A stretch of 64,000 nucleotides of DNA from contig NZ_MSGO01000036.1 in the NCBI RefSeq assembly GCF_001929375.1, positions 83,364-147,363 on the forward strand, in the 5' to 3' direction. The position numbers and the translations under genes are program-made. Of this stretch, positions 29,913 through 60,018 are shown piece after piece. The stretch is from Actinomyces oris. GTDB lineage: Bacteria; Actinomycetota; Actinomycetes; Actinomycetales; Actinomycetaceae. The notes below the pieces were generated by a model. That model did not search any database, was not told where the DNA came from, and saw nothing but the letters and a program-made list of their open reading frames with translations. Every line of letters begins with the position of its first letter. The first letter of the stretch is position 1.

Positions 29913-30251
29913 GGACCCATCTCATCATGAGGGGACCTCCGGTGTCAGGTGTGTCAGCTCCGCGGTTGCCTCCGTCATCACCGCCGGCTCCCTGACCGGC
30001 CGCAGTCCTTCGCGGCGGGCGCGGGGCCACAGCCCCGTTTCTGCACCCCGTCTCCACAGGCCCGACGACGCCGCTGGGCGCAGCCGCGGGCGGGCCCGCA
30101 CCCTGGTGGGGACTCGCCCGCGGCGCCGCAGTACCGCCGCGGGGTACCGGCCGAGGAGCCGGGAGGGCGGCTGTGGCAACGGCCGCGGGAACGGCTGGCA
30201 GGCCGCGGGGAAGGACTCGGGACAACGTGGAGACATGTGAAGGAGAGGACG
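29913..30251. other. Divergent region between HAD and ssd genes
   Basis: About 340 GC-rich bases with no supported gene. An open frame continuous with ssd runs back through it but lacks a start with a ribosome site and resembles no protein. Promoters for both directions are expected here; none is clear. Confidence 0.4.
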
Positions 30252-31412: not shown

Positions 31413-32656
31413 GTCCCGATCAACCCAGAGTCTCCGGTGGGACCGGGGCAGACGGCCCCGAGCTCGCCCGCGTCCGCAGTGCCCTGGCCCGCGGCGTGGG
31501 CCTGGAGGAGGCCCTCAACGACGCCGCCGCCCCCGCTACCGGACAGGTGGGGATGGCGCGCCTGGGGCAGAGGGTGCGCGCCGACGTCGACGGCGCCGGG
31601 CCGCTCCTCCAGCCCCTCATCGAGACCGACGGCGTCACCGACGTCCTCGTCAGCGGCGGGCGCACCTGGATCGACCGGGGGCACGGCCTCGAACCCGTCC
31701 CCGCCGCCACCATGGACGAGCCCGAGGTGCGGGCCCTGGCCGTGCGCATGGCCGCCTCCGCCCACAAGCGCCTCGACGACGCCTGCCCCGTCGTCGACGC
31801 CACCCTGCCCGACGGCACCCGCCTCAACGCGGTCCTGCCGCCCCTGAGCGCCGACGGCACCCTCATCAGCCTGCGCACCAAGCGCCGCCGTGGCTTCACC
31901 CTGGACGAGCTCACCGCCGCCGGCACCGTCGCCCCCGGACTGGACGAGGTCCTGGCCGCCCTCGTCACCGGCCGCGCCAGCTGCCTGGTCACCGGCGCCA
32001 CCGGCACCGGCAAGACCACCCTCCTGGCCGCCCTGCTCGCACTCGTCCCGGCCACCGAGCGCATCGTGTGCATCGAGGAGGCCAGCGAGCTGCGCCCCCA
32101 CCACCCCCACGTCGTCCACCTCCAGGAGCGCGGCGCCAACGTCCAGGGCGTCGGGGCGGTCTCCATGACCTCCCTGGTGCGCACCGCCCTGCGCATGCGG
32201 CCCGACCGGATCGTCCTGGGCGAGTGCCGCGGCCCCGAGGTACGCGACGTCCTCACCGCCCTCAACACCGGCCACGAGGGCGGCTGGGCCACCCTGCACG
32301 CCAACTCGCCCGCCGACGTCCCCGCCCGCCTGACCGCCCTGGGGGCGCTCGCGGGACTCGACGAGGCGGCCGTCGCCGCCCAGGCGGCCAGTGCCCTCGA
32401 CGCCGTCGTCCACCTGCGCCGGCAGGCCGGCACCGCCGGGGCACGCCGCTTCGTGGCCTCCATCGGCGTGCTGCGGCGCGAGGCGTCCCCGGCCGGAGCG
32501 GTCCTCATCTGCGAGGAGGCCCTGCACGTGACGGGCGACGGCCGCCTGAGCCCAGGCCCGGCCGTATCGGCGCTGCGGGAGCGGGTCGGTCCGCAGGTCT
32601 TCGCCCGCACCGGCCTTGACGGACTGCCCGACCCGGGGGAGAGGAGACCCACATGA
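31400..32656 (+). CDS. tadA: TadA/CpaF secretion ATPase
   Basis: 418 residues. This is a type II/IV secretion-type ATPase that powers Tad pilus assembly. It shows TDVLVSGGRTWIDRG, Walker A GATGTGKTT, the Asp box IVCIEEASELRP, Walker B DRIVLGECRGPE and the His box GGWATLHANSP. The start ATG 31400 has GAGGAGG 5 nt upstream. It overlaps tadBC by 4 bases. Confidence 0.95.
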   Translation: MVPVSPDQPRVSGGTGADGPELARVRSALARGVGLEEALNDAAAPATGQVGMARLGQRVRADVDGAGPLLQPLIETDGVTDVLVSGGRTWIDRGHGLEPVPAATMDEPEVRALAVRMAASAHKRLDDACPVVDATLPDGTRLNAVLPPLSADGTLISLRTKRRRGFTLDELTAAGTVAPGLDEVLAALVTGRASCLVTGATGTGKTTLLAALLALVPATERIVCIEEASELRPHHPHVVHLQERGANVQGVGAVSMTSLVRTALRMRPDRIVLGECRGPEVRDVLTALNTGHEGGWATLHANSPADVPARLTALGALAGLDEAAVAAQAASALDAVVHLRRQAGTAGARRFVASIGVLRREASPAGAVLICEEALHVTGDGRLSPGPAVSALRERVGPQVFARTGLDGLPDPGERRPT

Positions 32657-33963
32657 CCGAGACGGCCTGCATGACCGGCATGGCCTGCGTGGCGGTGGGC
32701 GTCGCGCCCCTGCCCCCGGCCGGGCACCTGGCCGGCCCGGCGGACGGACCGGTGCCCGGCGCCTGGATCGCGGCGGTCCTGGTCGCCCTGGCCGCCGCCG
32801 TGCTCCTGCTGCCGGCCCGCCGCGGCCTGCCCCGCGGCTTGACCACGGGAGCCTCCGCGGCCGAGGCTCGCCCGACGATGCGGCAGGCGGCGCTCACCGC
32901 GCTGCGCTCCCGACGCACCGGGGCGCCCGAACCGGACCTCGGCCTGCTGCTCACCGAGGTCGCCAGCCTCCTGCGCGCCGGCGCGACGGCGCAACGGGCC
33001 TGGACGCGCGCCTGCCGGCGCGCGGGTCTCACCGAGGGCGTCGAGCCCGACGAGGATGGTGTCCCACCGGTGCTGCGCGCGCTCGCGGACCTCCAGCACG
33101 ACTCGTGGCTGCCCCGATGGAGCGGCGGGCACCTGCACTGGCACCCGCCCCCAAGGGGGCAGCGGGCCCGGCAGAGGCGCGCCACCGCCGCCGGGGTGCC
33201 GGGCGCCGTCGCCTCCTGCCGCCTGTCGACCGCCCTGGGGGCGCCCCTGGCCGACATCCTCCAGACCGTGGCCGGCGGGGTGGCCGAGTCCGGTCGCGCC
33301 GAGGCCTCCCGGCGGGCCGCCCTGGCCGGTCCCCGCAGCACCGCCCGGCTCCTGGCCTGCCTGCCCGTGGTCGGCCTGGGACTGGGGATGCTCGTGGGCG
33401 CCGACCCCGCCTCCCTCCTGCTCGACGGCGGCGTCGGCAGCGCCGTGGGGGCGCTGGGCATCGGCCTCATGGTGGTGGGGCACCTGGTGACCAGGCGCCT
33501 CATACGCTCCGCAACGGCTGAGGGCGAGGTCGTCGACGAGGCCCTGGTCCTGGACCTGGCCGCCGCCGCCCTGAGCGCCGGGGCCTCGGTGCCCGGGGTG
33601 CTCACCGCCTTGGGCCAGGCCCTGGAGGAGGAGGGCCCCGGCGTCGTGGGGAGGGCCTTGCTGCTGGGCGCCCCGTGGGAGGAGGCCTGGCAGGCGCCCG
33701 AGGACGATCAGTGGAGGGCGCGGCGCTCCCGCCTGGAGTCCTGTCTGCGCCCCGGCTGGGAGGACGGGGCCTCACCGGCCGCCCTCCTGGAGGCGACGGC
33801 GGCGAGCCTGCGCGCGGGGCGGCACGCCCGAGACGAGGAGGCCGCCGAGCGCCTGGCGGTGCGCCTGGTCCTGCCGCTGGGCGCCTGCCACCTGCCGGCC
33901 TTCGTCATTCTGGGGATCGCGCCGGTCGTCGCCTCGGTCGGCATGAGCATGCTCACCGGGTGA
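32653..33963 (+). CDS. TadB-TadC fused membrane protein (two T2SSF-like halves)
   Basis: 436 residues. The N-terminal half (helix at about 37-56, then LGLLLTEVASLLRAGATAQRAW and a later helix pair) resembles TadB. The C-terminal half (EALVLDLAAAALSAGASVPGVLTALG, then RLVLPLGACHLPAFVILGIAPVV) resembles TadC, normally a separate protein. Both act as the inner-membrane platform. No Flp pilin, TadE or TadF gene follows; the next gene is unrelated. Confidence 0.85.
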   Translation: MTETACMTGMACVAVGVAPLPPAGHLAGPADGPVPGAWIAAVLVALAAAVLLLPARRGLPRGLTTGASAAEARPTMRQAALTALRSRRTGAPEPDLGLLLTEVASLLRAGATAQRAWTRACRRAGLTEGVEPDEDGVPPVLRALADLQHDSWLPRWSGGHLHWHPPPRGQRARQRRATAAGVPGAVASCRLSTALGAPLADILQTVAGGVAESGRAEASRRAALAGPRSTARLLACLPVVGLGLGMLVGADPASLLLDGGVGSAVGALGIGLMVVGHLVTRRLIRSATAEGEVVDEALVLDLAAAALSAGASVPGVLTALGQALEEEGPGVVGRALLLGAPWEEAWQAPEDDQWRARRSRLESCLRPGWEDGASPAALLEATAASLRAGRHARDEEAAERLAVRLVLPLGACHLPAFVILGIAPVVASVGMSMLTG

Positions 33964-40748: not shown

Positions 40749-42455
40749 TTACTCCTCGACGACGGCGGCCGGGAGCCTGACGCTGAAGGTGGTCCCGTGG
40801 TCCTCGGGTGCGGTGGAGGAGTCGACGTCGATGCTCCCGCCGTGGGACTGGACGATGGCCAGCGCGATCGACATGCCCAGGCCCGTGGAGCCGGTGCGCC
40901 GCTCGCGCGAGGAGTCGCCCCGGGCGAAGCGCTCGAAGAGCCGGTCGCGCACATCGGGAGCGATTCCCGGGCCGTCGTCGTGGATGCGCACGATGAGCGT
41001 GTCGCCCTCGCGGGCCAGCGTCGTGGTCACCTGGCTGCCGGCCGGCGTGTGGACCCGGGAGTTGGCCAGGAGGTTGACGACGACCTGGCGCAGGCGGGCC
41101 TCGTCACCGATGACCAGCGGAGGCTCGGGCAGGAAGTCCTCGGCCTCCGCCGCCGTGGCGTCGGCCGGCGGCTCCAGGACGGCCAGGTCCAGCTGCCAGT
41201 CGTGGTCGGGGCCGGCCGCGCGGGCGTCGGCCACCGTGTCCACCAGGAGACCGACCAGGTCCACCTCCTCGCGGCGCAGCTCGCGTCCGGCGTCCAGGCG
41301 GGCCAGCAGCAGCAGGTCCTCGACGAGCGCCGTCATCCGCACCGACTCGGAGTGCACGCGCTCCAGGGCGTAGGTGGCCTCCTCCGGCAGGTCGGCGTCG
41401 GCCCCCTCCCGGCGGATGAGCTCGGTGTAACCGCGGATCGAGGCCAGCGGCGTGCGCAGCTCGTGGGAGGCGTCGGCCACGAACTGGCGCACCTGCGTCT
41501 CCGAGCGCTGGCGCGCGGCCAGGGCGGACTCCACGTGCCCCAGCAGCGTGTTGAGGGCGCCGCCGACCTGCCCGACCTCGGCCGAGGAGCCCAGGTCCGC
41601 CTTCTCCACGCGGTCCTCAATGCTCACCTCGCCGCGCTCCAGCGGCTGAGAGGCCACACGGTGCGCGGTGCGGGCCACCCGCTCCAGGGGCGCCAGCGAG
41701 GAGCGCACCATGACCCGCCCGGCCAGGGCCACCACGAGGGCGCCCACCAGTGCCACTGCCAGCTCGATGAGCAGCTGGGTGCGGATGAGAGCCTTGTCCC
41801 CCTCCAGGGAGAGCCCGGTGATGACCGTGCTGCCCGAGGCCTCGTCGCGGGTGGCCACCACCCGGTAGCTGCCCAGGTGGTGCAGGTGCACGGTGACGGG
41901 GTGGTCCTGGTTGGCCTGGGACAGCAGCAGCCGGCAGTCCTCCTTGGAGATGGCCGCGTAGTGGCCGTTCTTGTCGATGTAGGCGGCGGCCTCGTTGCTG
42001 GAGGCCGACGTCTGCGTGGTGATGAGCGTCAGGGTCCCGGTGGACTGCCCGGCGGCGTCGAGGCCGGGAGGGACCCCCTCCTTGCCGGGGCCGCCGTCGG
42101 CCCCGCCCGCCCCGTCGGACTGGTCGCCCGGCTTGTCCTGGCCCTCCTGCGCCGCCTCCTTGGAGGCCTTCCTGGCCTCCTGCGTCAGGTCGTGGCGCTT
42201 GTCGGCGGCGCGCTGGGCGGCCGCCATCAGCTGACTGTCCGTGCGTGCCATGAGCGTGTGGCGCAGGCTGACGGTGGAGAAGGCGCTCATGACCGCCGCC
42301 ATGACCAGGACCAGCCCGAGCACCCCGACCACCAGCCGGGTGCGCAGGCTGCGAGGAGGTGTGAGGAGCGAGCCGGGCCGCCATGAGCGCAGGCTCATCC
42401 GCCGCCCGGTCGGTGCCGGTTGCCGGGGCGTCGGCGGGCGCTCAGCTGCGCTCAT
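40749..42455 (-). CDS. Sensor histidine kinase (PhoR-like)
   Basis: 568 residues. Helix 1 at about 41-60, an extracytoplasmic sensor of about 165 residues containing one Cys, helix 2 at about 227-250, then HAMP. HisKA with phosphoacceptor His331 (ADASHELRTPLASIRGY) and HATPase_c (NLLANSRVHTP, DDGPGI, GSTGLGMSIA) follow. Its start overlaps the response regulator gene by 14 bases. Pairing with a PhoP-like regulator suggests phosphate, pH or envelope sensing, but the signal is unknown. Confidence 0.94.
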   Translation of the reverse strand: MSAAERPPTPRQPAPTGRRMSLRSWRPGSLLTPPRSLRTRLVVGVLGLVLVMAAVMSAFSTVSLRHTLMARTDSQLMAAAQRAADKRHDLTQEARKASKEAAQEGQDKPGDQSDGAGGADGGPGKEGVPPGLDAAGQSTGTLTLITTQTSASSNEAAAYIDKNGHYAAISKEDCRLLLSQANQDHPVTVHLHHLGSYRVVATRDEASGSTVITGLSLEGDKALIRTQLLIELAVALVGALVVALAGRVMVRSSLAPLERVARTAHRVASQPLERGEVSIEDRVEKADLGSSAEVGQVGGALNTLLGHVESALAARQRSETQVRQFVADASHELRTPLASIRGYTELIRREGADADLPEEATYALERVHSESVRMTALVEDLLLLARLDAGRELRREEVDLVGLLVDTVADARAAGPDHDWQLDLAVLEPPADATAAEAEDFLPEPPLVIGDEARLRQVVVNLLANSRVHTPAGSQVTTTLAREGDTLIVRIHDDGPGIAPDVRDRLFERFARGDSSRERRTGSTGLGMSIALAIVQSHGGSIDVDSSTAPEDHGTTFSVRLPAAVVEE

Positions 42456-43188
42456 CGGTGCCGGCGACAGGCTTGAGGACGTATCCGACGCCGCGCATCG
42501 TGTGGATCATGGGCTCGCGGCCCTTGTCGATCTTGCGGCGCAGGTAGGAGATGTAGAGCTCGACGATATTGGCCTGCCCGCCGAAGTCGTAGTTCCACAC
42601 CCGGTCCAGGATCTGTGGCTTGGACAGGACCCGGCGGGGATTGCGCATGAGGTAGCGCAGCAGCTCGAACTCGGTGGCGGTCAGCTGGATCTCGTCGTCA
42701 CCGCGCCAGACCTCGTGGGAGTCCTCGTTCATGCGCAGGTCCCCGACCTCCAGCAGGGAGGTCCGCTTCTCCTCACTGGCCCCGGAGCGGCGCAGCAGGG
42801 CGCGCAGTCGGGCCACGACCTCCTCCAGGGAGAAGGGCTTGGTGACGTAGTCGTCGCCGCCGGCGGTCAGGCCTGCCACCCGGTCCTCGACGGCGTCCTT
42901 GGCCGTCAGGAACAGGACCGGCACGTTCGGGCGGTGGCCGCGCACTCGGCGCATGACCTCCAGGCCGTCGAAGTCGGGCAGCATGATGTCCAGGACGATG
43001 ACGTCGGGGTCGATCTCCTGGGCGGACCGGACGGCTGCGATCCCGGTTCCGGCGGTGGTGACCTCCCAGCCCTCATAGCGCAGGGCGGAGGCGAGCAGGT
43101 CGGCGAGCATCTGCTCGTCGTCGACGACCAGGACACGTAGGGGGGAGCCGTCGGCGCGGGTGAGGTTCTCGGTGGGGGCGTTAGTCAC
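42442..43188 (-). CDS. OmpR-family response regulator (PhoP-like)
   Basis: 248 residues. Receiver with VVDDE, phosphoacceptor Asp67 (VIVLDIMLPDFDG), FLTAKDAVEDRVAGLTAGGDDYVTKPFSLEE; winged-helix output with ATEFELLRYLMRNPRRVLSK and NIVELYISYLRRKID. The whole chain follows mycobacterial PhoP closely. First gene of the pair. Confidence 0.95.
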   Translation of the reverse strand: MTNAPTENLTRADGSPLRVLVVDDEQMLADLLASALRYEGWEVTTAGTGIAAVRSAQEIDPDVIVLDIMLPDFDGLEVMRRVRGHRPNVPVLFLTAKDAVEDRVAGLTAGGDDYVTKPFSLEEVVARLRALLRRSGASEEKRTSLLEVGDLRMNEDSHEVWRGDDEIQLTATEFELLRYLMRNPRRVLSKPQILDRVWNYDFGGQANIVELYISYLRRKIDKGREPMIHTMRGVGYVLKPVAGTDERS

Positions 43189-43490: not shown

Positions 43491-44843
43491 ATGGAATACG
43501 TCGATGGCAACGAGCGCCGCTTCGGTGCCGAGGACCTGTTCTTCTCGACGACGGATACCAAGGGCGTCATTCGCAGGACCAACCGGGTCTTCGATTCGCT
43601 GTCCTGTTACAGCTCCGAGGAGCTCGTCGGCTCTCCGCACAACATCATTCGGCATGACGACATGCCCGTTGGAGCCTTCAAGCTCATGTGGGACGACCTC
43701 AAGCAGGGGCGCTGTTCCTGCGTCTACGTGCTCAATCGCGCCAAGGACGGGCGCGACTACTGGGTCTTCGCCACGATCGCCCCGCTGGCTGACGGCTACC
43801 TGTCCGTGCGCGTGCGCCCGACCAACTACGCCATGTTCACCCCCGTCAAGGAGATCTACGCCCGCGTGCGGGCCGCCGAGCGCGCCTACGCCGAGGAGGG
43901 CCACGGGCGCCGGGAGGTCGCCGAGCACGGTGCGGCGCTGCTGACCGAGGAGCTGGCGAAGCTCCAGTACCGCGACCTGCACAACTTCGCCCGGGCCGCG
44001 CTTCCGCGCGAGCTGGCGCTCCTGGTCGTCGAGGGCGTCCGGGTGCCGCCGCGCGCCGAGTCGGACGATCCCATGTCCGGCGTCCTTCAGGCCGTCGCCG
44101 CCATCGAGCGGGATACCGACGAGCTCATCCACCAGCTCGGCGAGTATCAGGAGCTCATCAACGGTCTGGGCTCCTGGGCCGACGGGGTGCGTTCGGTCAT
44201 CGACCGGGCCGACCGTGTGGGCTCCCTCATGGGGGAGGTGATCAGTCCCGACGCCGAGTCCTCCGTTCCCACCGTCTCCGAGCGCGTCAAGGAGCGCGGG
44301 GCTCAGGCCGTCGAGGTGCTGCGCCAGCTCAACTCCTCCCTCGTGGCGCTCTACGAGGCGGTCTCCGAGGTGCGCTTCCGCAGCTCGATGATGCGTCTGC
44401 ACACCCTCATGGCCGGCATCTTCGCCGCCGCCGTCCTGGACGGCCAGGAGGGGGAGTCCGCCGACGCCATCGGAGACCTCGCCGAGGCGATGCTCTCCGA
44501 CCTGGAGGAGCTCGTGCCCTCCTGCCGGGAGGCGGCGAACCTGGTCGAGCGCCTGGAGGGCGATCTTCGCTCCGTGGTCAGCAATCTCGACCGCGTCAAG
44601 CGGCCCTTCCAGCGCTGGATCCGCGCTCTTCAGGATGAGGGGGCCCAGGCGCTCGTCGAGGGCGTCGACGCCGAGGCCGCCCTGAGTGAGGCCGTCGCCG
44701 TGGGCGAGCAGGGCTTCCCGGAGACGGCCTCGCTGGCCGAGCTGGCCGCCAAGGCCCGCGGTGTCGTTGTGACCTTGGACGAGTCCGTCATCCGTCAGCG
44801 GGTGGCGACGGTTCGCGAGACCCTGAGTCACCTGGGGGAGTAG
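43491..44843 (+). CDS. Soluble Aer-type PAS protein with unrecognised helical C-terminus (A)
   Basis: 450 residues, no membrane helix. Residues about 10-120 are a PAS domain of the Aer aerotaxis class: FFSTTDTKGVIRRTNRVFDSL, GSPHNIIRHDDMP, MWDDL with Trp67, NRAKDGRDYWVFATIAPL. In E. coli Aer this domain binds FAD. The rest is almost entirely predicted helix with no MCP hairpin (no conserved E-rich tip), HisKA, GGDEF or HTH. It is followed by a paralogue at 45014. Redox or oxygen sensing is inferred; the output is unknown. Confidence 0.85.
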   Translation: MEYVDGNERRFGAEDLFFSTTDTKGVIRRTNRVFDSLSCYSSEELVGSPHNIIRHDDMPVGAFKLMWDDLKQGRCSCVYVLNRAKDGRDYWVFATIAPLADGYLSVRVRPTNYAMFTPVKEIYARVRAAERAYAEEGHGRREVAEHGAALLTEELAKLQYRDLHNFARAALPRELALLVVEGVRVPPRAESDDPMSGVLQAVAAIERDTDELIHQLGEYQELINGLGSWADGVRSVIDRADRVGSLMGEVISPDAESSVPTVSERVKERGAQAVEVLRQLNSSLVALYEAVSEVRFRSSMMRLHTLMAGIFAAAVLDGQEGESADAIGDLAEAMLSDLEELVPSCREAANLVERLEGDLRSVVSNLDRVKRPFQRWIRALQDEGAQALVEGVDAEAALSEAVAVGEQGFPETASLAELAAKARGVVVTLDESVIRQRVATVRETLSHLGE

Positions 44844-45013
44844 TTGGCAATATTCTACAAGACAGCTTCCACCTTATTGGTGACAATGCCATAAATCGTC
44901 TTCCGCGGGATCGCGCGTCTCACTACGTTCTTCTCGGCACTGTGTGAGGGGCTGAGGGAAATGGTCCTCTGGCGAGGTGCTCCCGCGAATTATTCACCCT
45001 GAAGGAAAGCACC

Positions 45014-46348
45014 ATGGAGTCACAGGTCGGTTACGAGCGTTTGTTCGATCCACAGGACATCTTCTTTTCCACCACGGATCTTAAAGGTGTCATTCAGAAC
45101 ACCAACCGGACATTCGACACGCTGTCGCGTTACTCGCGCGAGCGTCTTATCGGGGCTCCGCACAACATCATTCGTCACCTGGACATGCCGGCGGGTCTGT
45201 TCCGCCTCATCTGGGACGATCTGCAGGCTCGGCGCCCGGCCTGCGGATACATCACCAACCGTGCCGTGGACGGCCTGGACTACCGGGTCTTCGCCACCAT
45301 CGTGCCGCTGCGCCAGGGGTACCTGTCGGTGCGGATCAAACCGATGGACACTGCGACCAGGGAACGGGTCGAGGAGGTCTACCGCCGGGTGCGCGCCAAG
45401 GAGCGCGACCTGGAGGCCCGGGGCGCCTCGCGCCACCAGCTCGGTGAGTTCGGTGGTCGTGAGCTGGCCGCGGAGCTGGCGGCCCTGGGCTTCTCCCGCC
45501 TGTACGACATGACACTGGCGACCCTGCCGCGCGAGGTGGCCGCCCTGGTCGCCGCCGGGGTTCGCGTTCCGGCGGCCGCCCCCGAGGGGCTGGGTGCCGT
45601 GGCCCGGATCCTCAACGCGGTGGCCGCCATGGAGAAGGACACCGACGCCCTGGTCTTCGAGCTCGACGAGTACCTGCGCCTCATCACCACCATGGAGGCC
45701 ACCCACGACTCGGCCCGGGTGGTGGAGGCGCGGGTGAGGCGCATCGGCCAGCTCGTCTCCCACGACGTCGGCGACAGCGCCCAGACCAAGGTGCTCATGC
45801 TCAGTGAGCGCATCACCGAGTTCACCGGTGTCGCGGGCGCCGAGCTCAGCGGGCTGCCCTCGCGGCTCAGGGTCCTGCACCAGTCGGTCACCGAGCTGCG
45901 CTTCTCCGTGGCCCTCATGCGCCTGCTGACTCTCATGGTGGGGCGCTTCGCCCAGGCCATCCTCGATGGCAGCGAGGTGGACGCCGTGCACTCCCTGACG
46001 GACCTGTGCGAGGCGCTCGAGTCCGGCCTGCGCGGACTGGGTCCCGTGCTGCAAACCGTGAGCGGCCAGGTCGCTCAGCTCAACGACGCCCTGCACACCG
46101 TGACCTCCAGCCTGGACCGGGCGGTCCGGCGCCTGGGGCAGTGGGTGGACCTGCGCGGCGGCGGGGCCGGCTCCTCGGGCTCACCGATCATCGACGAGGT
46201 CGCCCAGCTCACCTCCCGCGGCTTCCCCGAGGTCCGTTCCCTGGCCGCGCTGGCCGCCGAGTGCCGCGGACTGCACCTGCCCTACGACGAGACCATCGCC
46301 GCTCAGCGCCTGGCCGCCGTGCGCAGCGCCCTGGCCGAGCTCGTCTAA
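45014..46348 (+). CDS. Soluble Aer-type PAS protein with unrecognised helical C-terminus (B)
   Basis: 444 residues, collinear with protein A along its whole length. PAS segment FFSTTDLKGVIQNTNRTFDTL, GAPHNIIRHLDMP, IWDDL (Trp67), NRAVDGLDYRVFATIVPL. The helical C-terminus shares ITTxE-type and LxVLHQSVTELRFSVALMRLLTLM-like stretches with A (compare VRFRSSMMRLHTLMAG). Its ribosome site is GAAGGAAAG. The Trp of DYWV in A is Arg here. The 170-base gap suggests separate or graded expression. Confidence 0.85.
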   Translation: MESQVGYERLFDPQDIFFSTTDLKGVIQNTNRTFDTLSRYSRERLIGAPHNIIRHLDMPAGLFRLIWDDLQARRPACGYITNRAVDGLDYRVFATIVPLRQGYLSVRIKPMDTATRERVEEVYRRVRAKERDLEARGASRHQLGEFGGRELAAELAALGFSRLYDMTLATLPREVAALVAAGVRVPAAAPEGLGAVARILNAVAAMEKDTDALVFELDEYLRLITTMEATHDSARVVEARVRRIGQLVSHDVGDSAQTKVLMLSERITEFTGVAGAELSGLPSRLRVLHQSVTELRFSVALMRLLTLMVGRFAQAILDGSEVDAVHSLTDLCEALESGLRGLGPVLQTVSGQVAQLNDALHTVTSSLDRAVRRLGQWVDLRGGGAGSSGSPIIDEVAQLTSRGFPEVRSLAALAAECRGLHLPYDETIAAQRLAAVRSALAELV

Positions 46349-46569: not shown

Positions 46570-49506
46570 GTGTCCACCAAGCTCGTCATCGTGGAGTCCC
46601 CCAACAAGGTGCGCTCCATCGCCGGCTACCTGGGTCCGGAGTTCGACGTCGAGGCCTCCGTGGGGCACATCCGCGACCTGCCGCAGCCCTCCGAGCTGCC
46701 CTCCACCATGAAGAAGGGCCCCTACGGGAAGTTCGCGGTCGACGTCGAGGACGACTTCACCCCCTACTACGTCGTCAACCCTGACAAGAAGAAGACGGTC
46801 GCCCAGCTCAAGAAGGCCCTCAAGGACGCCGACGAGCTCTACCTGGCCACCGACGACGACCGCGAGGGCGAGGCCATCGCCTGGCACCTTCAGCAGGTCC
46901 TCAAGCCCAAGGTGCCGGTGCGCCGCATGGTCTTCACCGAGATCACCCGTGAGGCCGTCACCCGGGCCCTGGACAACACCCGCGAGCTGGACATCCACCT
47001 CGTCGACGCCCAGGAGACCCGCCGCATCCTGGACCGCCTCGTGGGCTACGAGGTCAGTCCGGTCCTGTGGCGCAAGGTCCGCGCGGGCCTGTCCGCCGGG
47101 CGCGTGCAGTCGGTGGCCACCCGACTCGTCGTCGAGCGCGAGCGCGAGCGCATGGCCTTCCGCTCCGCCTCCTACTGGGGGGTGGAGGCCACCTTCTCCA
47201 CCGTCCTGTCCGCCGTGGACGTCACCGCCCGCCAGGAGGCCTCCTTCACCGCTCGGCTCGTCACCCTCGACGGGCGGCGCGTGGCCACCGGACGCGACTT
47301 CAACGACGACGGCCAGCTGCGCCCCGCCGCGCTCAAGGCCTCCGCCGTCCACCTCCACCAGGTGGGGGCCACCGCCGTGGCCGAGGCCATCGGCCGGGGG
47401 GAGCCCCGCGTGGTCGGCGTGGAGGACAAGCCCTACAAGCGCCGCCCGGCCGCCCCCTTCACCACCTCCACCCTCCAGCAGGAGGCCTCCCGCAAGCTGC
47501 GCATGAACCCGCGCGAGACCATGCGCGTGGCGCAGGGCCTCTACGAGAACGGCTTCATCACCTACATGCGCACCGACTCCACGGTCCTGTCCGGCCAGGC
47601 CGTGGCCGCGGCCCGCTCGCAGGTGGCCGAGCTCTACGGGGCCGAGTACGTCCCCGAGCGCCCCCGCGTCTACGCCTCCAAGTCCAAGGGCGCCCAGGAG
47701 GCCCACGAGGCGATCCGCCCCGCCGGCGACCACTTCCGCACCCCGGCCCAGGTCTCCGGCGAGCTCACCGGCGCCCAGTTCCGCCTCTACGAGCTCATCT
47801 GGAAGCGGACCGTGGCCTCCCAGATGGCCGACGCCGTCGGCTCGACCGCCACGGTGAGCGTCGAGGTGCCGCTGACGCCGGTGGCCGGCGAGTCGCGCGA
47901 CTCCGGCCCCACCTTCTCCACGGCCGGCCTGACGGCGTCGGGCACCGTCATCACCTTCCGCGGCTTCCTGGCCGCCTATGAGGAGGGGCGCGACGCCGAC
48001 CGCTACCAGGACGACTCCGGCGCCACCGCCAAGGATTCCAAGGACGTGCGCCTGCCCGCGATGATCGCCGGTCAGGAGCTGGCCTCCCTGGCCGCCGAGG
48101 CCGCCGGCCACGCGACCACGCCGCCGCCGCGCTACACCGAGGCCTCCCTGGTCAAGGCCCTTGAGGAGCGGGAGATCGGCCGCCCCTCGACGTATGCGGC
48201 CACCATGTCCACCATCTCCGACCGCGGCTACGTCGACCACCGTGGGCAGGCCCTGGTTCCCACCTGGCTCGCCTTCGCCGTCACCCGGCTGCTGGAGGAG
48301 AACTTCACCGAGCTCGTCGACTACGACTTCACCGCCTCCATGGAGCGCGACCTCGACCGGATCGCCGCCGGCGAGGAGGACCGGGTCGCCTGGCTGCGGC
48401 GTTTCTACACCGGTCAGGGCGGCGCCGGCGCCCCGGAGGCCGCCCAGGTCGCCGCCTCGGGTGAGAACGACGCCGCGGCCGCCGCACTGCGCGCCCACGG
48501 GCTCAAGGGCCTGGTGGACAACCTCGGCGAGATCGACGCCCGCGCCGTCAACTCCATCGAGATCGGCGAGGGCATCACCCTGAGGGTGGGGCGCTACGGC
48601 CCCTACCTGGAGGACGCCGAGGGCAAGCGCGCCAACGTGCCGACCGACCTCGCCCCCGACGAGCTGACCGTGGACAAGGCCCGCGAGCTCTTCACCCGCG
48701 CCGCCGATGACGGCCGCGAGCTCGGCGTCGACCCGGTCAGCGGGCACGTCATCATCGCCAAGGACGGCCGCTACGGCCCCTACGTCACCGAGATCCTGCC
48801 CGACCCGGAGGAGACGACCGAGGCGAAGACGACGGAGACGGCGAAGACGACGGAGACGACGGAGACGGCGAAGACGGCAAGATCGACGAAGGCGAAGAAG
48901 ACCACCAAGGCCGCCAAGCCCAAGCCCCGCACCGCCAGCCTCCTGCGCTCCATGGACCTGTCCACCGTGACCCTGGAGCAGGCCCTGGACCTGCTGAGCC
49001 TGCCGCGCGTCGTCGGACAGGACCCGGAGTCGGGCGCGGACATCACCGCCCAGAACGGCCGCTACGGGCCCTACCTCAAGAAGGGCACCGACTCGCGCTC
49101 CCTGGAGACCGAGGAGCAGATCTTCACCGTCACCCTGGAGCAGGCCCTGGAGCTCTTCGCCCAGCCCAAGCGGCGTCGAGGACAGGCGGCCGCCCGCGGA
49201 CCGCTGCGCGAGCTGGGGCAGGACCCCGCCACTGACAAGCCGGTAGTCATCAAGGACGGCCGCTTCGGCCCCTACATCACCGACGGGCAGACCAACGTCA
49301 CCGTGCCCCGCAGCGAGGACCCGGCCACCATCAGCGCTGAGAGGGCCTTCGAGCTGCTGGCGGACAAGCGCGCCAAGGGCCCGGCCAAGAAGCGCACCAC
49401 CCGTAAGACCGCCGCCAAGAAGACGACGACAACGAAGAAGACCACCACCAAGAAGACCACTGCCAAGAAGGCGACGAGCAAGGCGGACGCCTCGACGGAG
49501 GGCTGA
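46570..49506 (+). CDS. topA: DNA topoisomerase I
   Basis: 978 residues, type IA topoisomerase relaxing negative supercoils. Toprim domain with IVESPNKVRSIAGYL and DDDREGEAIAWHL; catalytic Tyr332 in ENGFITYMRTDST. The C-terminus lacks zinc fingers and has four repeated YGPYL/GPYIT domains, as in actinobacterial TopA. These are interrupted by a Glu/Thr/Lys low-complexity linker (about 750-780) and end in a Lys/Thr-rich tail for DNA binding. The GTG start has GAGGAAGG upstream. Confidence 0.97.
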   Translation: MSTKLVIVESPNKVRSIAGYLGPEFDVEASVGHIRDLPQPSELPSTMKKGPYGKFAVDVEDDFTPYYVVNPDKKKTVAQLKKALKDADELYLATDDDREGEAIAWHLQQVLKPKVPVRRMVFTEITREAVTRALDNTRELDIHLVDAQETRRILDRLVGYEVSPVLWRKVRAGLSAGRVQSVATRLVVERERERMAFRSASYWGVEATFSTVLSAVDVTARQEASFTARLVTLDGRRVATGRDFNDDGQLRPAALKASAVHLHQVGATAVAEAIGRGEPRVVGVEDKPYKRRPAAPFTTSTLQQEASRKLRMNPRETMRVAQGLYENGFITYMRTDSTVLSGQAVAAARSQVAELYGAEYVPERPRVYASKSKGAQEAHEAIRPAGDHFRTPAQVSGELTGAQFRLYELIWKRTVASQMADAVGSTATVSVEVPLTPVAGESRDSGPTFSTAGLTASGTVITFRGFLAAYEEGRDADRYQDDSGATAKDSKDVRLPAMIAGQELASLAAEAAGHATTPPPRYTEASLVKALEEREIGRPSTYAATMSTISDRGYVDHRGQALVPTWLAFAVTRLLEENFTELVDYDFTASMERDLDRIAAGEEDRVAWLRRFYTGQGGAGAPEAAQVAASGENDAAAAALRAHGLKGLVDNLGEIDARAVNSIEIGEGITLRVGRYGPYLEDAEGKRANVPTDLAPDELTVDKARELFTRAADDGRELGVDPVSGHVIIAKDGRYGPYVTEILPDPEETTEAKTTETAKTTETTETAKTARSTKAKKTTKAAKPKPRTASLLRSMDLSTVTLEQALDLLSLPRVVGQDPESGADITAQNGRYGPYLKKGTDSRSLETEEQIFTVTLEQALELFAQPKRRRGQAAARGPLRELGQDPATDKPVVIKDGRFGPYITDGQTNVTVPRSEDPATISAERAFELLADKRAKGPAKKRTTRKTAAKKTTTTKKTTTKKTTAKKATSKADASTEG

Positions 49507-50315: not shown

Positions 50316-51044
50316 GTGACCCAGCCCGCCGCACCGGTTCCGTCCGCCACCGTCCTGCTCGTCGACGACGAGGCCCCCATCCGCCGCTCACTGGGACCTT
50401 ACCTGGAGCGCGGCGGGTACCGGGTCCTGCTCGCCTCGGACGGGGTGGAGGCCCTGGACACCCTGGCCTCCTACCAGGTGGACATCATCGTCTCCGACGT
50501 CCTCATGCCCAGGATGGACGGGCGTGAGCTGGTGCGGCGGGTCAGGGCCGATGGGGCCTGGACCCCCATCATCCTGCTCACCCAGGTGGACGCCTCCTAT
50601 GAGCGGGTCTCGGCCCTTGATGACGGCGCCGACGACTACCTGTCCAAGCCCTTCGACCCCGCCGAGCTCGCCTCCCGGATCCGCGCGGTGCTGCGCCGCA
50701 CCCGCGGCGTTGCCCAGCCGCTGACCTCCGCCGCCCGGCTCGTGGCCGGGGAGCTGCTCCTGGAGCGGACCTCGCGGCGGGTGACCCTGTCGGGGCGCGA
50801 GGTGACGCTCACCCCGAAGGCCACGATGCTCCTGGACTACCTCATGAGCCATCCCGGAGAGCTCCACACCCGCGATGCCCTGCTGGCCTCCCTGTGGGGC
50901 ATCGACTTCGCCACCTCCACACGCGCCGTCGACCACCGCATCCGCGAGATCCGCCAGGCCCTGGGCGACGACGCCGCCCACCCCACCTACATCGAGACGG
51001 TCCCCTCCGTCGGCTACCGCTTCCGGGCCGAGGTCCGGGCATGA
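50316..51044 (+). CDS. OmpR-family response regulator
   Basis: 242 residues: receiver with LLVDDEAPIRRSL, phosphoacceptor Asp61 (IIVSDVLMPRMDG), Lys111 (DDYLSKPFD); trans_reg_C output with LTPKATMLLDYLMSHPGELHTRDALL and TSTRAVDHRIREIRQALG. The stop overlaps the kinase start (ATGA). The recurrent TGTCGCAG palindromes beside it are its likely targets. Confidence 0.94.
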   Translation: MTQPAAPVPSATVLLVDDEAPIRRSLGPYLERGGYRVLLASDGVEALDTLASYQVDIIVSDVLMPRMDGRELVRRVRADGAWTPIILLTQVDASYERVSALDDGADDYLSKPFDPAELASRIRAVLRRTRGVAQPLTSAARLVAGELLLERTSRRVTLSGREVTLTPKATMLLDYLMSHPGELHTRDALLASLWGIDFATSTRAVDHRIREIRQALGDDAAHPTYIETVPSVGYRFRAEVRA

Positions 51045-52300
51045 GCCTGCCGCCGATGCCGCCGCAGCTGCCGCCCTCGGTCCCGCCGCGCGCGGCGCCC
51101 GCGCAGGACGGCCGCATCAGCTTCCTGGGGCCGGCGGTGGACACGGGTGGTCCGCGCACCGTGCCGGTCACCCGGCCCGGGGCGCAGGCGGAGCAGTCCG
51201 TACAGCCGCCGAGCCACCCACTGGCGGGCCACCCGGGGAGCCGGCCGCAGCAGGTGGCCGCCCCTCAGCAACCGGTGGCCGAGCCCCGGCCTGTCGAGCC
51301 CTCGGCCGGGGTCGTCGCTGAAGCTGTCGCCGAAGCCGCCCCGACACATCCGGAACCCGCGACGGAGGGGCCCCGGCGGGCCACCTGGATCGGATGGGTG
51401 CTGGCGGTGGTGCTCGTTGCTGTTGCGGCGGCGGTCTCCTACGCGGCCTTCGGACTGGCCCCGGTGGTCATCTCGACGGCGGTGCCGCTGGTGGTGGCGG
51501 AGGCCGGGCTCGTTCTGCTGCTGCTCGCTCTGGCCGCGACGGTGATCCGCCGCAGGCTGCGGCTGGCGGAGCAGCAGGGGCGAGGCCAGGCCCAGGAGGA
51601 GGCCTGGTCCCGTCACCAGCAGTTCCTGCGCCGGCTGGACCACGAGCTGAAGAACCCGCTGACGGCGGTGCGGGCCGCCGTCGCCGACCTGCCGCAGGCC
51701 CCGCCCCACGAGCTGCAGGCCCGGGTCGACGTCGTCGACGCCCAGGCCCGCCGGATGGGGCGCTTGGTGACGGACCTGCGCAAGCTGGCCGACCTGGAGA
51801 CGGCCGCGCTCTCACTGGAGGACGTCGATATCGCCGAGACCGTCCACGACGCCGCCCAGGCGGTCGGTGAGGAGGGGGCGGCGCGTGGCGGCGGGCCCAA
51901 GATCCGCCTGGATCTGCCCCAGGTGCCGTGGCCGCTGTCGCATGTGCGCGGCGACGGCGACCTGCTGTACTCGGCCGTCTACAACGTCATCTCCAACGCC
52001 TCGAAGTACACCCAGCCCGGCGGGACCGTGGAGGTGCGCGGTCGGGAGGAGTCCGGCACCGTCACCATCGAGGTGGCCGACACCGGGATCGGGGTGCCGC
52101 AGGCCGACCTGCCGGCCGTGTGGAGCGAGCTGGCCCGGGCCGGCAACGCCCGGGGCCTGCCGGGCTCGGGGCTGGGGCTGGCGCTGGTGTCCACGATCGT
52201 GCGCCGCCACGGCGGCAGCGTACGCATGGCCTCCCGCGAGGGCGTGGGCACCCGGGTCTGGCTGAGCCTGCCCGTCGCGGGCCCGCCGGATATGTCGTGA
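51041..52300 (+). CDS. Sensor histidine kinase without extracytoplasmic sensor domain
   Basis: 419 residues. An N-terminal Pro-rich cytoplasmic stretch of about 110 residues, two adjacent helices (about 114-138 and 141-170) joined by a very short loop, then HisKA with His201 (RRLDHELKNPLTAV) and HATPase_c (NVISNASKYTQPGG, DTGIGVP, GSGLGLALV). This resembles intramembrane-sensing kinases, which often rely on a partner protein, here possibly the flanking lipoproteins. Confidence 0.93.
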   Translation: MSLPPMPPQLPPSVPPRAAPAQDGRISFLGPAVDTGGPRTVPVTRPGAQAEQSVQPPSHPLAGHPGSRPQQVAAPQQPVAEPRPVEPSAGVVAEAVAEAAPTHPEPATEGPRRATWIGWVLAVVLVAVAAAVSYAAFGLAPVVISTAVPLVVAEAGLVLLLLALAATVIRRRLRLAEQQGRGQAQEEAWSRHQQFLRRLDHELKNPLTAVRAAVADLPQAPPHELQARVDVVDAQARRMGRLVTDLRKLADLETAALSLEDVDIAETVHDAAQAVGEEGAARGGGPKIRLDLPQVPWPLSHVRGDGDLLYSAVYNVISNASKYTQPGGTVEVRGREESGTVTIEVADTGIGVPQADLPAVWSELARAGNARGLPGSGLGLALVSTIVRRHGGSVRMASREGVGTRVWLSLPVAGPPDMS

Positions 52301-56294: not shown

Positions 56295-56300
56295 TATGAT
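56295..56300 (+). promoter_or_regulatory. -10 box of leaderless TAP-like gene 1
   Basis: TATGAT ends exactly 7 nt before the ATG at 56308, which favours that start over ATGs at 56296 and 56299 inside the box. Confidence 0.55.
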
Positions 56301-56307
56301 GCTGCTC

Positions 56308-57993
56308 ATGGAAACGAGAACGAAGCATCCTCCCAAGAATCGGCCTTATCGGTCCTCGCCCGCGGTCGTGGACGAGGCGAGAGGCTCCGGTGGCCTTCGA
56401 CGTCGTCGGGTGTCTGCTGGGGTGCTGGCGGCTGTGGCGGGTGTGTGCCTGGGGGTGGGGGCCGGTGTGGTTCCTGCTGCTGCGGTGCCCGCTGCGGGGC
56501 CGGCTCCGGCTGCGTCTTCCAAGGCGGCGGTGCCCAAGGGGCTGGAGTCCTTCTACGGTCAGAAGGTCGAGTGGTACGACTGTGTGGCCACCGGTGGGGT
56601 GGAGAGGTCTGCTGACAGGACCGGTTTTCAGTGCGCCAAGGTCAAGGTGCCGTTGGACTACTCCCAGCCCGATGGCCAGACCATTGAGATCGCGATGAAG
56701 AAGCACCTGGCCACCGGCTCGGTGCGCCAGGGCACCCTCTTCGTCAACCCCGGCGGCCCCGGCGGATCCGGGGTGGATACCGTCAGCACGATGGCGACGA
56801 CGACCTTCGCCGGCGTGCAGAGCTCCTACGACATCATCGGCTTCGACCCCCGCGGCGTCGGTGCCTCCACCGCCATCACCTGCACCTCCGACACCGAGGT
56901 GACGGCAATGGCGGAGGCCGCCCCGGTCAATGCCGCAGCCGGCGCCACGACATTCGAGCAGCGGGCCGCCGCCATCTCCGCGCAGTTCAAGAAGCTGGAG
57001 GCCAACTGCGCGGCGAACACCGAGCCGGCCGAGCTGCTCGACCATGTGGACACCGTCTCGGTGGCCCGGGATCTCGATGTCCTGCGAGCGCTGTCCGGGG
57101 ACCAGAAGCTCAACTACCTGGGCTTCTCCTACGGCACCTACCTGGGTGCCCACTACGCCGAGCTCTTCCCGGCCAACACCGGCCGCATGGTCCTCGACGG
57201 CGCCCTGGACCCCAGCCTGACCTACAACGAGCGCAGGCAGGGGCAGGCGCAGGGCTTCGAGCGGGCGCTGCGCAACTACGTCGCCTGGTGCCAGTCAGGA
57301 CAGGACTGTCCCCTCACCGGTGACACCGACGCCGGCGTCAAGCAGATCGGAGACCTCTTCACCTCGGCCAACCAGTCGCCCGTGCCCTCCTCGGGCCCGA
57401 ACCGCCCGGTGACGGGCGAGGACATGAAGCAGGTGATCGCGCTTCTGCTCTATTCTCCGGAGACTTCCTGGGAGACTGGCAATGAGGCCCTGGCGCAGGT
57501 CATCAACGAGCACGACGCCTCGATCTTCAGGACGATACTGACCCGGCTCGACGCGCAGCCCGCGGTCAGCACCGGTGCGATGATCGGCACCAACTGCCTG
57601 GACTACCGGGTCGAGGGCGATATGGCCACCTGGGCGGCGCAGAGCAAGGAGCTGGAGAGGATCGCCCCCCGCTTCGCCACCATCGCGGAGGCCGGCGACC
57701 TCGGCTGCCAGGCCTGGGGGCACAACGGGACCCGGCCGCCCAAGGCGCTCCACGCCAAGGGGACCGCGCCGATCCTCGTGATCGGGACGACCGGCGACCC
57801 GGCCACTCCGCACGAGTGGGCCGTGGCTCTGGCCGATCAGCTGGACTCCGGCCGGCTCCTCACCTGGGAGGGCAATGGCCACCTGGCCTATGCCAACCCC
57901 GCGCACGGTCCCTGCGTCACCAAGGCGGTCGACACCTACCTGCTCACCGGCACCATGCCCAAGAAGGGGCTGACGTGCCACGGCACGGAGTGA
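56308..57993 (+). CDS. Exported TAP-like serine peptidase (1)
   Basis: 561 residues, family of tripeptidyl aminopeptidase/SlpD-like secreted alpha/beta hydrolases. Signal sequence RRRRVSAGVLAAVAGVCLGVGAG, NPGGPGGSGVD oxyanion region, FDPRGVGAS, nucleophile Ser274 in LGFSYGTYLGAHYAELFP, a cap domain, TAP-like C-terminus with GTTGDPATP (Asp) and GNGHLAY (His). It probably trims peptides outside the cell. A 363-bp block (56401-56763) is nearly identical to gene 2. Confidence 0.93.
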   Translation: METRTKHPPKNRPYRSSPAVVDEARGSGGLRRRRVSAGVLAAVAGVCLGVGAGVVPAAAVPAAGPAPAASSKAAVPKGLESFYGQKVEWYDCVATGGVERSADRTGFQCAKVKVPLDYSQPDGQTIEIAMKKHLATGSVRQGTLFVNPGGPGGSGVDTVSTMATTTFAGVQSSYDIIGFDPRGVGASTAITCTSDTEVTAMAEAAPVNAAAGATTFEQRAAAISAQFKKLEANCAANTEPAELLDHVDTVSVARDLDVLRALSGDQKLNYLGFSYGTYLGAHYAELFPANTGRMVLDGALDPSLTYNERRQGQAQGFERALRNYVAWCQSGQDCPLTGDTDAGVKQIGDLFTSANQSPVPSSGPNRPVTGEDMKQVIALLLYSPETSWETGNEALAQVINEHDASIFRTILTRLDAQPAVSTGAMIGTNCLDYRVEGDMATWAAQSKELERIAPRFATIAEAGDLGCQAWGHNGTRPPKALHAKGTAPILVIGTTGDPATPHEWAVALADQLDSGRLLTWEGNGHLAYANPAHGPCVTKAVDTYLLTGTMPKKGLTCHGTE

Positions 57994-58066
57994 GCCCTCA
58001 AGGAACCGCCACGCTCCTGCCGACTCTCCACTGAGGATCGTCAGGGAGCGATGCGGGTTACTCATC

Positions 58067-58107
58067 ACCGTGGTTGGGGCGCTGGAGACAAGCGCCCCAA
58101 CCACGGT
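58067..58107 (+). terminator. Intrinsic terminator between TAP-like genes 1 and 2
   Basis: Perfect 17-bp arms (58067-58083, 58091-58107), 7-nt loop, followed by TCTTCTTC. Confidence 0.85.
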
Positions 58108-58163
58108 TCTTCTTCACTCTCAGATGCCTGCCCATGACGCACACACGTTCCGTTTACTGTTTG

Positions 58164-58169
58164 TAATAT
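58164..58169 (+). promoter_or_regulatory. -10 box of leaderless TAP-like gene 2
   Basis: TAATAT in an AT-rich patch ends exactly 7 nt before the ATG at 58177. Confidence 0.6.
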
Positions 58170-58176
58170 AACGTTT

Positions 58177-59919
58177 ATGAAAAATAGAGTGAATGAATCT
58201 TCCGGTCCGCGACGAGTCGCTCCGGGACGTCGTCGGGTGTCTGCCGGGGTGCTGGCGGCTGTGGCGGGTGTGTGCCTGGGGGTGGGGGCCGGTGTGGTTC
58301 CTGCTGCTGCGGTGCCCGCTGCGGGGCCGGCTCCGGCTGCGTCTTCCAAGGCGGCGGTGCCCAAGGGGCTGGAGTCCTTCTACGGTCAGAAGGTCGAGTG
58401 GTACGACTGTGTGGCCACCGGTGGGGTGGAGAGGTCGGCTGACAGGACCGGTTTTCAGTGCGCCAAGGTCAAGGTGCCGTTGGACTACTCCCAGCCCGAT
58501 GGTCAGACCATTGAGATCGCGATGAAGAAGCACCTGGCCACCGGCTCGGTGCGCCAGGGCACCCTCTTCGTCAACCCCGGCGGCCCCGGCTACTCCGGAG
58601 TGGACATGGTGGAGAGCAGCCAGACCCAGTTCTCACCCGCCCTCAACCAGGCCTACGACATCATCGGCTTCGACCCCCGCGGCGTCGGTGCCTCCACCGC
58701 CATCACCTGCGACGACGGCGCGGGCCAGCAGCCCGCCAAGGCCGCCCAGGGGGGCATGGGTGTCAACGACCCCCAGCCCGGCTCCCTCGCCGCCGACGTC
58801 GCCGGGGACGACCCCACCCCCTTCCGGGACGCTGAGAATCCTGCTGCCGACGGCGGAGCGGAGGGCGACATCGACTTCCCGACCCTGATCGGCGAGATCA
58901 CCAAGGACTTCAAGCAGGAGGAGGCCAACTGCGCCGCCCACACCAAGCCGGCCGGGCTGCTCGACCATGTGGACACCGTCTCGGTGGCCCGGGATCTCGA
59001 TGTCCTGCGGGCGCTGTCCGGGGACCAGAGGCTCAACTACCTGGGCTTCTCCTACGGCACCTACCTGGGTGCCCACTACGCCGAGCTCTTCCCGGCCAAC
59101 ACCGGCCGCATGGTCCTCGACGGCGCCGTCGACCCCTCCCTGTCACTGGGGGACCGGGCCGCCGGGCAGGCCAAGGGCTTCGAGACCTCACTGCGCACCT
59201 ACGTCGAGCAGTGCCAGTCCGGCCAGGCCGTCCAGGAGGGCCAGAACTGTCCCCTGACCGGTGACGCCGACGCCGGGGTGCAGCAGATCCGGGCCCTCAT
59301 CGCCTCGGCCGACAAGACGCCGCTGAAGACCTCGGACCCGAACGTCACCGTGGACGGCAGCACGATCCGCAGCGTCGTCCGCCGCCTCCTGTACTCCTCC
59401 GAGTACTGGCCCTTCCTCACCTACGCCCTCGACCAGGCCATCACCCAGAAGGACGGCTCCTACATCCAGGTGCTCTACGGGAAGGCGACGGCCGGAGGCA
59501 GCACCCCGACCTTCTACGCCGTCAACTGCCAGGACATCCCCGTCCAGGGCGACATGACCAGCTGGGAGAAGGAGTACCAGCAGATCCTCCAGAGCTCGCC
59601 AACCTTCGGCGCCTCCTTGGGCAACCAGGATGCGCGCTGCCAGGCCTGGGGGCACAACGGGACCCGCAAGCCCGCACCCATCCACGCCAAGGGGGCGTCC
59701 CCCATCCTGGTGGTGGGCACCACCGGTGACCCGGCCACGCCCTACGCCTGGTCCCAGGCCCTGGCTGATCAGCTCGAGTCCGGCCGGCTCCTGACCTGGG
59801 AGGGCAACGGCCATACCGCCTACGGGCGCTCGGGTCCCTGCGTCCACAAGCCCGTCGACGCCTACCTCATCAGAGGGACCATGCCCGAGGAAGGCCTGAC
59901 CTGCAAGAACGGACAGTGA
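58177..59919 (+). CDS. Exported TAP-like serine peptidase (2)
   Basis: 580 residues, same family and same signal peptide as gene 1 after the first 18 residues. Oxyanion region NPGGPGYSGVD, Ser292 in LGFSYGTYLGAHYAELFP, GTTGDPATPYAW and GNGHTAYGRSGPC. It differs from gene 1 in an acidic insert at about residues 180-230 (DVAGDDPTPF) and in the cap domain, which points to different substrate preference. It has its own promoter and terminator. Confidence 0.93.
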   Translation: MKNRVNESSGPRRVAPGRRRVSAGVLAAVAGVCLGVGAGVVPAAAVPAAGPAPAASSKAAVPKGLESFYGQKVEWYDCVATGGVERSADRTGFQCAKVKVPLDYSQPDGQTIEIAMKKHLATGSVRQGTLFVNPGGPGYSGVDMVESSQTQFSPALNQAYDIIGFDPRGVGASTAITCDDGAGQQPAKAAQGGMGVNDPQPGSLAADVAGDDPTPFRDAENPAADGGAEGDIDFPTLIGEITKDFKQEEANCAAHTKPAGLLDHVDTVSVARDLDVLRALSGDQRLNYLGFSYGTYLGAHYAELFPANTGRMVLDGAVDPSLSLGDRAAGQAKGFETSLRTYVEQCQSGQAVQEGQNCPLTGDADAGVQQIRALIASADKTPLKTSDPNVTVDGSTIRSVVRRLLYSSEYWPFLTYALDQAITQKDGSYIQVLYGKATAGGSTPTFYAVNCQDIPVQGDMTSWEKEYQQILQSSPTFGASLGNQDARCQAWGHNGTRKPAPIHAKGASPILVVGTTGDPATPYAWSQALADQLESGRLLTWEGNGHTAYGRSGPCVHKPVDAYLIRGTMPEEGLTCKNGQ

Positions 59920-60005
59920 CACCGGACCGTCCCCGCCCCCGGGGCCTCGATGGGAACTTCTTCCCACTCCGTCTCCAGGAGGAGGCCCCGGGCGGCTCGG
60001 CAGCA

Positions 60006-60011
60006 TAAGGT
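60006..60011 (+). promoter_or_regulatory. -10 box of leaderless TAP-like gene 3
   Basis: TAAGGT ends exactly 7 nt before the GTG at 60019, supporting that start over an in-frame codon at 59950. Confidence 0.55.
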
Positions 60012-60018
60012 TCACGTC

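Follow-up and report, generated by a model that had tools for sequence, protein, structure and literature searches.

A 64,000-nucleotide stretch of the Actinomyces oris genome (contig NZ_MSGO01000036.1, positions 83,364 to 147,363; hereafter the window) carries two tandem genes, A and B, which encode PAS proteins with long helical tails. We propose, with a probability of about 60%, that both are soluble redox sensors of the flavin adenine dinucleotide (FAD) type, in which an Aer-type PAS domain and a neck precede a single-chain, double-hairpin four-helix bundle. This bundle would derive by tandem duplication from the hairpin of methyl-accepting chemotaxis proteins (MCPs), would have been uncoupled from CheA and CheW, and would act on another partner. 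A and B share 44% identity over 449 columns, from end to end, and both open reading frames (ORFs) are intact. The genome of the window (G000) contains four copies of the family, namely A, B and two paralogues on contigs C69 and C6 that share 37% and 32% identity with A, respectively. Judged by sequence comparison, A and B look like real genes since the ratio of nonsynonymous to synonymous substitution rates (dN/dS) is low: four comparisons of A and one of B with congeners gave values of 0.12-0.18. Coordinates are collected in Table 1.

The PAS domains of A and B are probably FAD-binding and of the Aer type, as the initial annotation had suggested. Among solved structures, A is closest to Aer (8dik, E-value 8e-20; 31cj, 1e-18; both over the PAS part), and Foldseek superimposed the PAS domain of the AlphaFold model of A on 8dik at 1.1 A with 36% identity. 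The FAD contacts described for Aer include N85, H53, R115, R57, W70 and M69 (PMC9668731). By alignment mapping, H53, R57, W70, N85 and R115 are all retained in A and B. Among the 104 full-length family rows, some of which are near-identical, the first four are retained in 104/104 and R115 in 103/104, while the M69 position is variable, with a methionine in 69 rows and an isoleucine in B. Both proteins have a glycine at the position of Aer S28, where a glycine substitution helped to stabilize the Aer PAS domain (PMC9668731). The motifs pointed out earlier, FFSTTD, PHNIIRH.DMP and NRA.DG, are present in both proteins; likewise, the W70 equivalent is W67 in each, and the tryptophan of the DYWV motif, W91 in A, is replaced by R91 in B.

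The tails, judged from profile comparisons, look like worn-down descendants of a chemotaxis receptor. The tail of A is helical in the AlphaFold model (16-row alignment, mean predicted local distance difference test score of 88 over A), and its end-to-end alignment with B agrees with the earlier view of two homologous helical tails. Also as claimed before, a Kyte-Doolittle scan found no hydrophobic segment in A or B, and searches of Pfam and NCBIfam at E-values up to 1 found no HAMP, MCP, kinase-core, GGDEF or helix-turn-helix family in them. The above-noise matches in these two databases were PAS-type families, or whole-protein models covering the PAS part only. Weak matches to FliT, ZorA2 and TnpC were discarded as coiled-coil noise, and no canonical output domain was found with Pfam, NCBIfam or PHROGs. 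The Foldseek matches listed were PAS chains or multidomain chains with poor root-mean-square deviation, with no MCP chain among them.

The relation to MCPs came from relatives of A and B that keep an MCP-like tip at the turn of their hairpins. Tails of the A/B type are collinear with the tails of the family from several phyla (hhalign probability 99.6 over 332 columns), and the tip-bearing relatives match the MCP hairpin with a probability of 97.6. This match occurs twice per chain, and in each of the two hairpins the tip motif aligns in register with the MCP tips. The tip-bearing hairpins reached profile probabilities of 79-98 against MCPs versus 2-13 for reversed-sequence controls, and hairpin 1 matched hairpin 2 in these relatives at 92.5, with reversed controls at about 1. 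MCPsignal was matched in 5/10 tip-bearing proteins (E-value 2e-6 to 7e-4, all below the curated cut-off), and the other five gave no match at E-values up to 1. With a profile that mixed tip-bearing with tipless tails, the two hairpins scored 91.1 and 29.6 against MCPs. Compared with MCPs directly, actinobacterial tails gave no match (3.8 with all 54 rows; 4.4 with those of the genus; 11.4, over 23 columns, with the rest). A and B are linked to the MCP hairpin only via intermediates (99.6, then 97.6, versus 4.4 directly), and their own MCP-like tips are gone. The initial annotation had described the output domain as unrecognised, which holds for direct family matches of the C-terminus and no longer for the family, since relatives exist and the better-kept ones match the MCP hairpin; a known output domain is approached through these intermediates, and the tail is not a canonical MCP hairpin.

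The tip-bearing relatives probably serve chemotaxis. We scored tips in 46 genomes, not every copy of every genome being scored, with a tip profile from which the own locus was left out. The tip-1 scores were bimodal, 14.2-60.4 bits versus at most 3.3 bits, with L143 and L145 at the weak end of the upper group, and the score of G746 is inflated by its being the same genome as L136. CheW (PF01584) was matched in 16/16 tip-bearing genomes versus 8/30 tipless ones (Fisher p 8e-7, uncorrected for relatedness), the tipless group being entirely Actinomycetota (30/30) and the tip-bearing group 8/16 Actinomycetota. In every CheW-less genome sampled, the family copies are tipless. These counts leave out L134, which has a broken reading frame and lacks a CheW match, L136 (the genome of G746), 11 genomes with short PAS proteins only (CheW in 11/11) and 21 genomes without a match to the family (CheW in 3/21). 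Neither MCPsignal nor CheW was matched in the genome of the window, 100% complete by estimate (CheA was not searched for), in line with the lack of a chemotaxis link noted before. The family copies of its genus have lost the tips.

A and B most likely work like a cytoplasmic Aer, with a redox-dependent FAD and a signal passing from the PAS domain to the bundle and from the bundle to a partner. The redox state of FAD would change the contact between the PAS domain and the neck, the neck would relay this change to the bundle, and the bundle, as a lone chain or as an oligomer, would dock on a cytoplasmic partner other than CheA or CheW.

A and B are neither Aer nor MCPs by the defining tests, having no membrane anchor and no HAMP or MCPsignal match, in a genome without a CheW match. 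E. coli Aer resembles them in its PAS fold, its identity to A and its FAD contacts; in contrast, Aer has HAMP and kinase-control domains regulating CheA (PMC9668731), whereas A and B are soluble, lack HAMP and a recognisable MCP domain, and are encoded in a genome without a CheW match. The double hairpin itself is already known from natural soluble single-chain MCP signalling domains, which occur in Rhodospirillum centenum and a few further cases, and from the engineered Tsr~Tsr (PMC4692393). These domains have two hairpins per chain, a layout that profile comparison supports in the tip-bearing relatives and that is probable for A and B. The family differs by the FAD-type PAS domain and neck in front and by tips that have diverged (tip-bearing relatives) or been lost (A and B). 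The split PAS/MCP receptors CetA/CetB (PMC13401364) have an FAD-type PAS protein in common with the family. Short relatives of A from Actinomycetota also overlap a soluble MCP gene (L125:7967-9489 and L126:8460-9910), an arrangement that looks like a split cytoplasmic aerotaxis receptor of the CetA/CetB kind; unlike these, A and B (450 and 444 residues) carry their own long tail in the same chain, in a genome without an MCPsignal match. In the literature searched, where most subscription journals were out of reach, we found no description of the family, nor of the FAD-type PAS domain in front of the bundle, of tips occurring only beside CheW, or of the conservon-pilus operon described below.

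In ten loci, nine from one genus and one from another family, a tipless family gene is immediately flanked by a cvnD-like GTPase gene on one side and a pilB-like gene on the other; this order is absent from L045 and L048, members of the same clade. In L108, the genes follow each other as cvnA-like kinase, roadblock, DUF742, GTPase, receptor, pilB, pilT and pilC, the first five of these genes overlap or are separated by very short gaps, and Pfam confirmed the four conservon parts and found no sensor domain in the kinase. L219, from the same genus, has the same operon without the receptor and a kinase that likewise has a single hydrophobic segment, indicating that the conservon-pilus operon is a module and that such a kinase can do without the receptor. 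According to PMC13343842, CvnA proteins that lack a sensor domain are accompanied by an accessory gene, cvnE or cvnF, and CvnF8 stimulates CvnA8. The genes for CvnE (P450) and CvnF (GAF) stand directly after cvnD (PMC13343842), as does the family gene in the ten loci, and a CvnA without sensor domain is common to these conservons and L108, the one locus checked. The receptor would, by analogy, supply the G-protein system of these operons with its redox input. The family differs from CvnE and CvnF in having an FAD-type PAS domain and an MCP-like bundle, not P450 or GAF, and the parallel is absent from the genus of the window. There, judged by their neighbours and by the lack of a DUF742 match over the cut-off in G000, A and B are not encoded directly after cvnD. 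In six genomes of this genus, PilT and DUF742 were not over the cut-off and CheW gave no match at all, so that the output in these genomes cannot be a conservon-pilus system. PilT and DUF742 were rejected as specific companions of the family: they were over the cut-off in 18/34 and 14/34 genomes with a full-length copy, and also in genomes without one (10/11 and 9/11 with short PAS proteins only, 4/21 and 8/21 without a match). We advance tentatively, and with less confidence than the proposal on A and B, that the MCP bundle was exapted as a CheA-independent redox output, which in one clade would be the sensor of a small-GTPase (conservon) switch driving type IV pilus motors, as a third accessory type of actinobacterial G-protein systems, whereas the four diverged copies in the non-chemotactic genus of the window would address other partners.

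The family was matched in 35 of the 37 genomes of the genus, the window's included and G011 and G013 excepted, and 34 of these 35 have two or more matches, some of which are pieces of one gene. In the order, at least 84 of 396 genomes match an alignment query at E-values up to 0.001, with 40 of these matches spanning most of the length and the remaining ones being short PAS proteins, partial matches and other PAS domains. At least 22 of 396 genomes match in the phylum sample, 9 over most of the length; both searches scored up to four candidates per genome, which makes these numbers minimum values. When named genomes were scanned, with the best 80 matches kept and the layout judged by reading the ORFs, same-layout relatives were seen among the matches listed. 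Within Actinomycetota, these are a Propionibacteriaceae metagenome-assembled genome (MAG), Demequina, Solirubrobacter, a Thermoleophilia MAG, an 'Actinomycetes' MAG and Actinomyces dentalis (L138). Outside the phylum, they are Botrimarina and a Phycisphaeraceae MAG, which we take to be Planctomycetota, Didemnitutus and Opitutia MAGs, presumably Verrucomicrobiota, three Bdellovibrionales/Bacteriovoracaceae MAGs and one 'Proteobacteria' MAG. Two genera from different families (L100:2144-8225 and L095:7956-14455) carry family copies flanked by what look by eye like an rpoC gene on one side and genes for ribosomal proteins on the other. In Solirubrobacter phytolaccae, a second, seemingly degenerate Aer-type PAS gene of 342 residues precedes the family gene, which is tip-bearing (L149:8864-9889).

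Table 1. Positions of genes A and B, their domains and the adjoining genes in the window
Feature	Coordinates	Strand	Basis
Gene A, Aer-type PAS and helical double-hairpin protein, 450 residues	43491..44843	+	ORF, paralogue alignment, AlphaFold, purifying selection
A, PAS domain, residues about 8-112; equivalents of Aer FAD contacts H50, R54, W67, N82, R107	43512..43826	+	AlphaFold, Foldseek to 8dik, contacts mapped from PMC9668731
A, three-helix neck, residues 113-180, partly common to short PAS proteins	43827..44030	+	AlphaFold model and comparison
A, hairpin 1, helices 194-250 and 259-316; turn region is the site of the MCP-like tip in relatives	44070..44438	+	AlphaFold, profile comparison
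A, RFRSSMMRLHTLMAGIFAAAVLDG, well conserved tail stretch across the family	44373..44444	+	Family alignment
A, hairpin 2, helices 324-383, 394-424 and 431-449	44460..44837	+	AlphaFold; counterpart in relatives
Gene B, paralogue of A with identical layout, 444 residues	45014..46348	+	ORF and alignment to A
B, PAS domain; five FAD-contact equivalents as in A; I66 for M66, R91 for W91	45035..45349	+	Alignment
B, helical tail, homologous to the A tail	45350..46342	+	Alignment
Histidine kinase of the OmpR-type regulator; HisKA, HATPase, HAMP just below cut-off	40749..42455	-	Locus comparison, Pfam
OmpR-type response regulator, divergent, adjoining the pair; likewise in 3 other pair loci examined	42442..43188	-	Locus comparison, Pfam
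Presumed topA-like gene (named from its sequence), downstream of B; likewise in 3 other pair loci examined	46570..49506	+	ORF, locus comparison

The pair is flanked by the two-component genes and topA in all four pair loci examined (the window, L131, L217 and L218). This constant neighbourhood would fit A and B feeding the divergent OmpR-type system, the redox state of the bundle tuning the histidine kinase, and CvnF8 acting on CvnA8 offers a precedent for an accessory sensor on a histidine-kinase-like protein (PMC13343842). We nevertheless judge such an output rather unlikely: two of the four loci with B only (L212 and L213) have no such genes within the 18 kb taken, the other two paralogues of the genome are located elsewhere, and response regulators, though the largest shared neighbour family, occur in only 7 of 43 neighbourhoods. 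Neighbour clustering over these 43 loci found no partner common to the family. No promoter-like site was found, and the one terminator-like site, within gene A, is at chance level. Further away in the window, Tad-type pilus-like genes were seen by eye about 10 kb upstream of the pair (29949-33960, ATPase at 31400-32653), and a PilT-family match below the cut-off (G000:C36:115312) is tied to this Tad-like locus. The stretch 50316-52297, beyond the topA-like gene, contains another response-regulator gene and one more ORF, and three consecutive ORFs of 554-580 residues with similar starts, apparently secreted paralogues, lie at 56296-61611.

The initial annotation had proposed that A and B signal by hetero-oligomerisation. 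A with an adjacent B is present in 23 of the 37 genomes of the genus, B alone in 4 and neither gene in 10, the types being assigned by tree for the loci sampled and otherwise by identity. A was never seen without B (23/23), so a dependence of A on B is possible, and the tandem arrangement as well as the neighbouring Aer-type PAS genes in L144, L149 and L104 are compatible with an obligate hetero-oligomer. Such an assembly is improbable all the same: plain duplication likewise yields adjacent paralogues, and an obligate partnership is not needed because an intact A is missing from 4/37 genomes that have B. Of these four, L215 has an A relic upstream of B, and in L212 B is located away from topA.

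Equally doubtful is that the tail is a generic coiled-coil scaffold without MCP ancestry, whose tip likeness would be a convergence on the heptad pattern. Three observations count for it and weigh against the descent from an MCP hairpin that we propose: coiled-coil chains of unrelated and designed proteins were also among the profile-search matches, A and B alone have no MCP match, and half of the ten tip-bearing proteins lack MCPsignal. Against convergence stand the register of the tip motif with MCP tips in both hairpins, the gap between the profile probabilities and those of reversed sequences, and the restriction of tips to genomes with CheW. Finally, that A and B are decaying, functionless remnants of a lost chemotaxis system is very improbable, for the absence of CheW and MCPsignal matches, the lost tips and the A relic in one congener are countered by the low dN/dS in all five comparisons, the multiple matches (some being gene pieces) in 34 of the 35 matching genomes of the genus and the invariant FAD contacts.

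MCP hairpins are commonly regarded as tied to CheA and CheW. If our proposal is true, a family that keeps a redox PAS domain and a bundle, and that is tipless in all CheW-less genomes sampled, would show how a chemoreceptor can be re-wired, and it offers natural single-chain receptors for study. From the cvnB-cvnC-cvnD - receptor - pilB-pilT-pilC operon, one would predict that type IV pili in Actinomycetota respond to oxygen or redox state via a small GTPase, in analogy with the accessory role reported for CvnF8. For the genus of the window, four candidate redox sensors are named.
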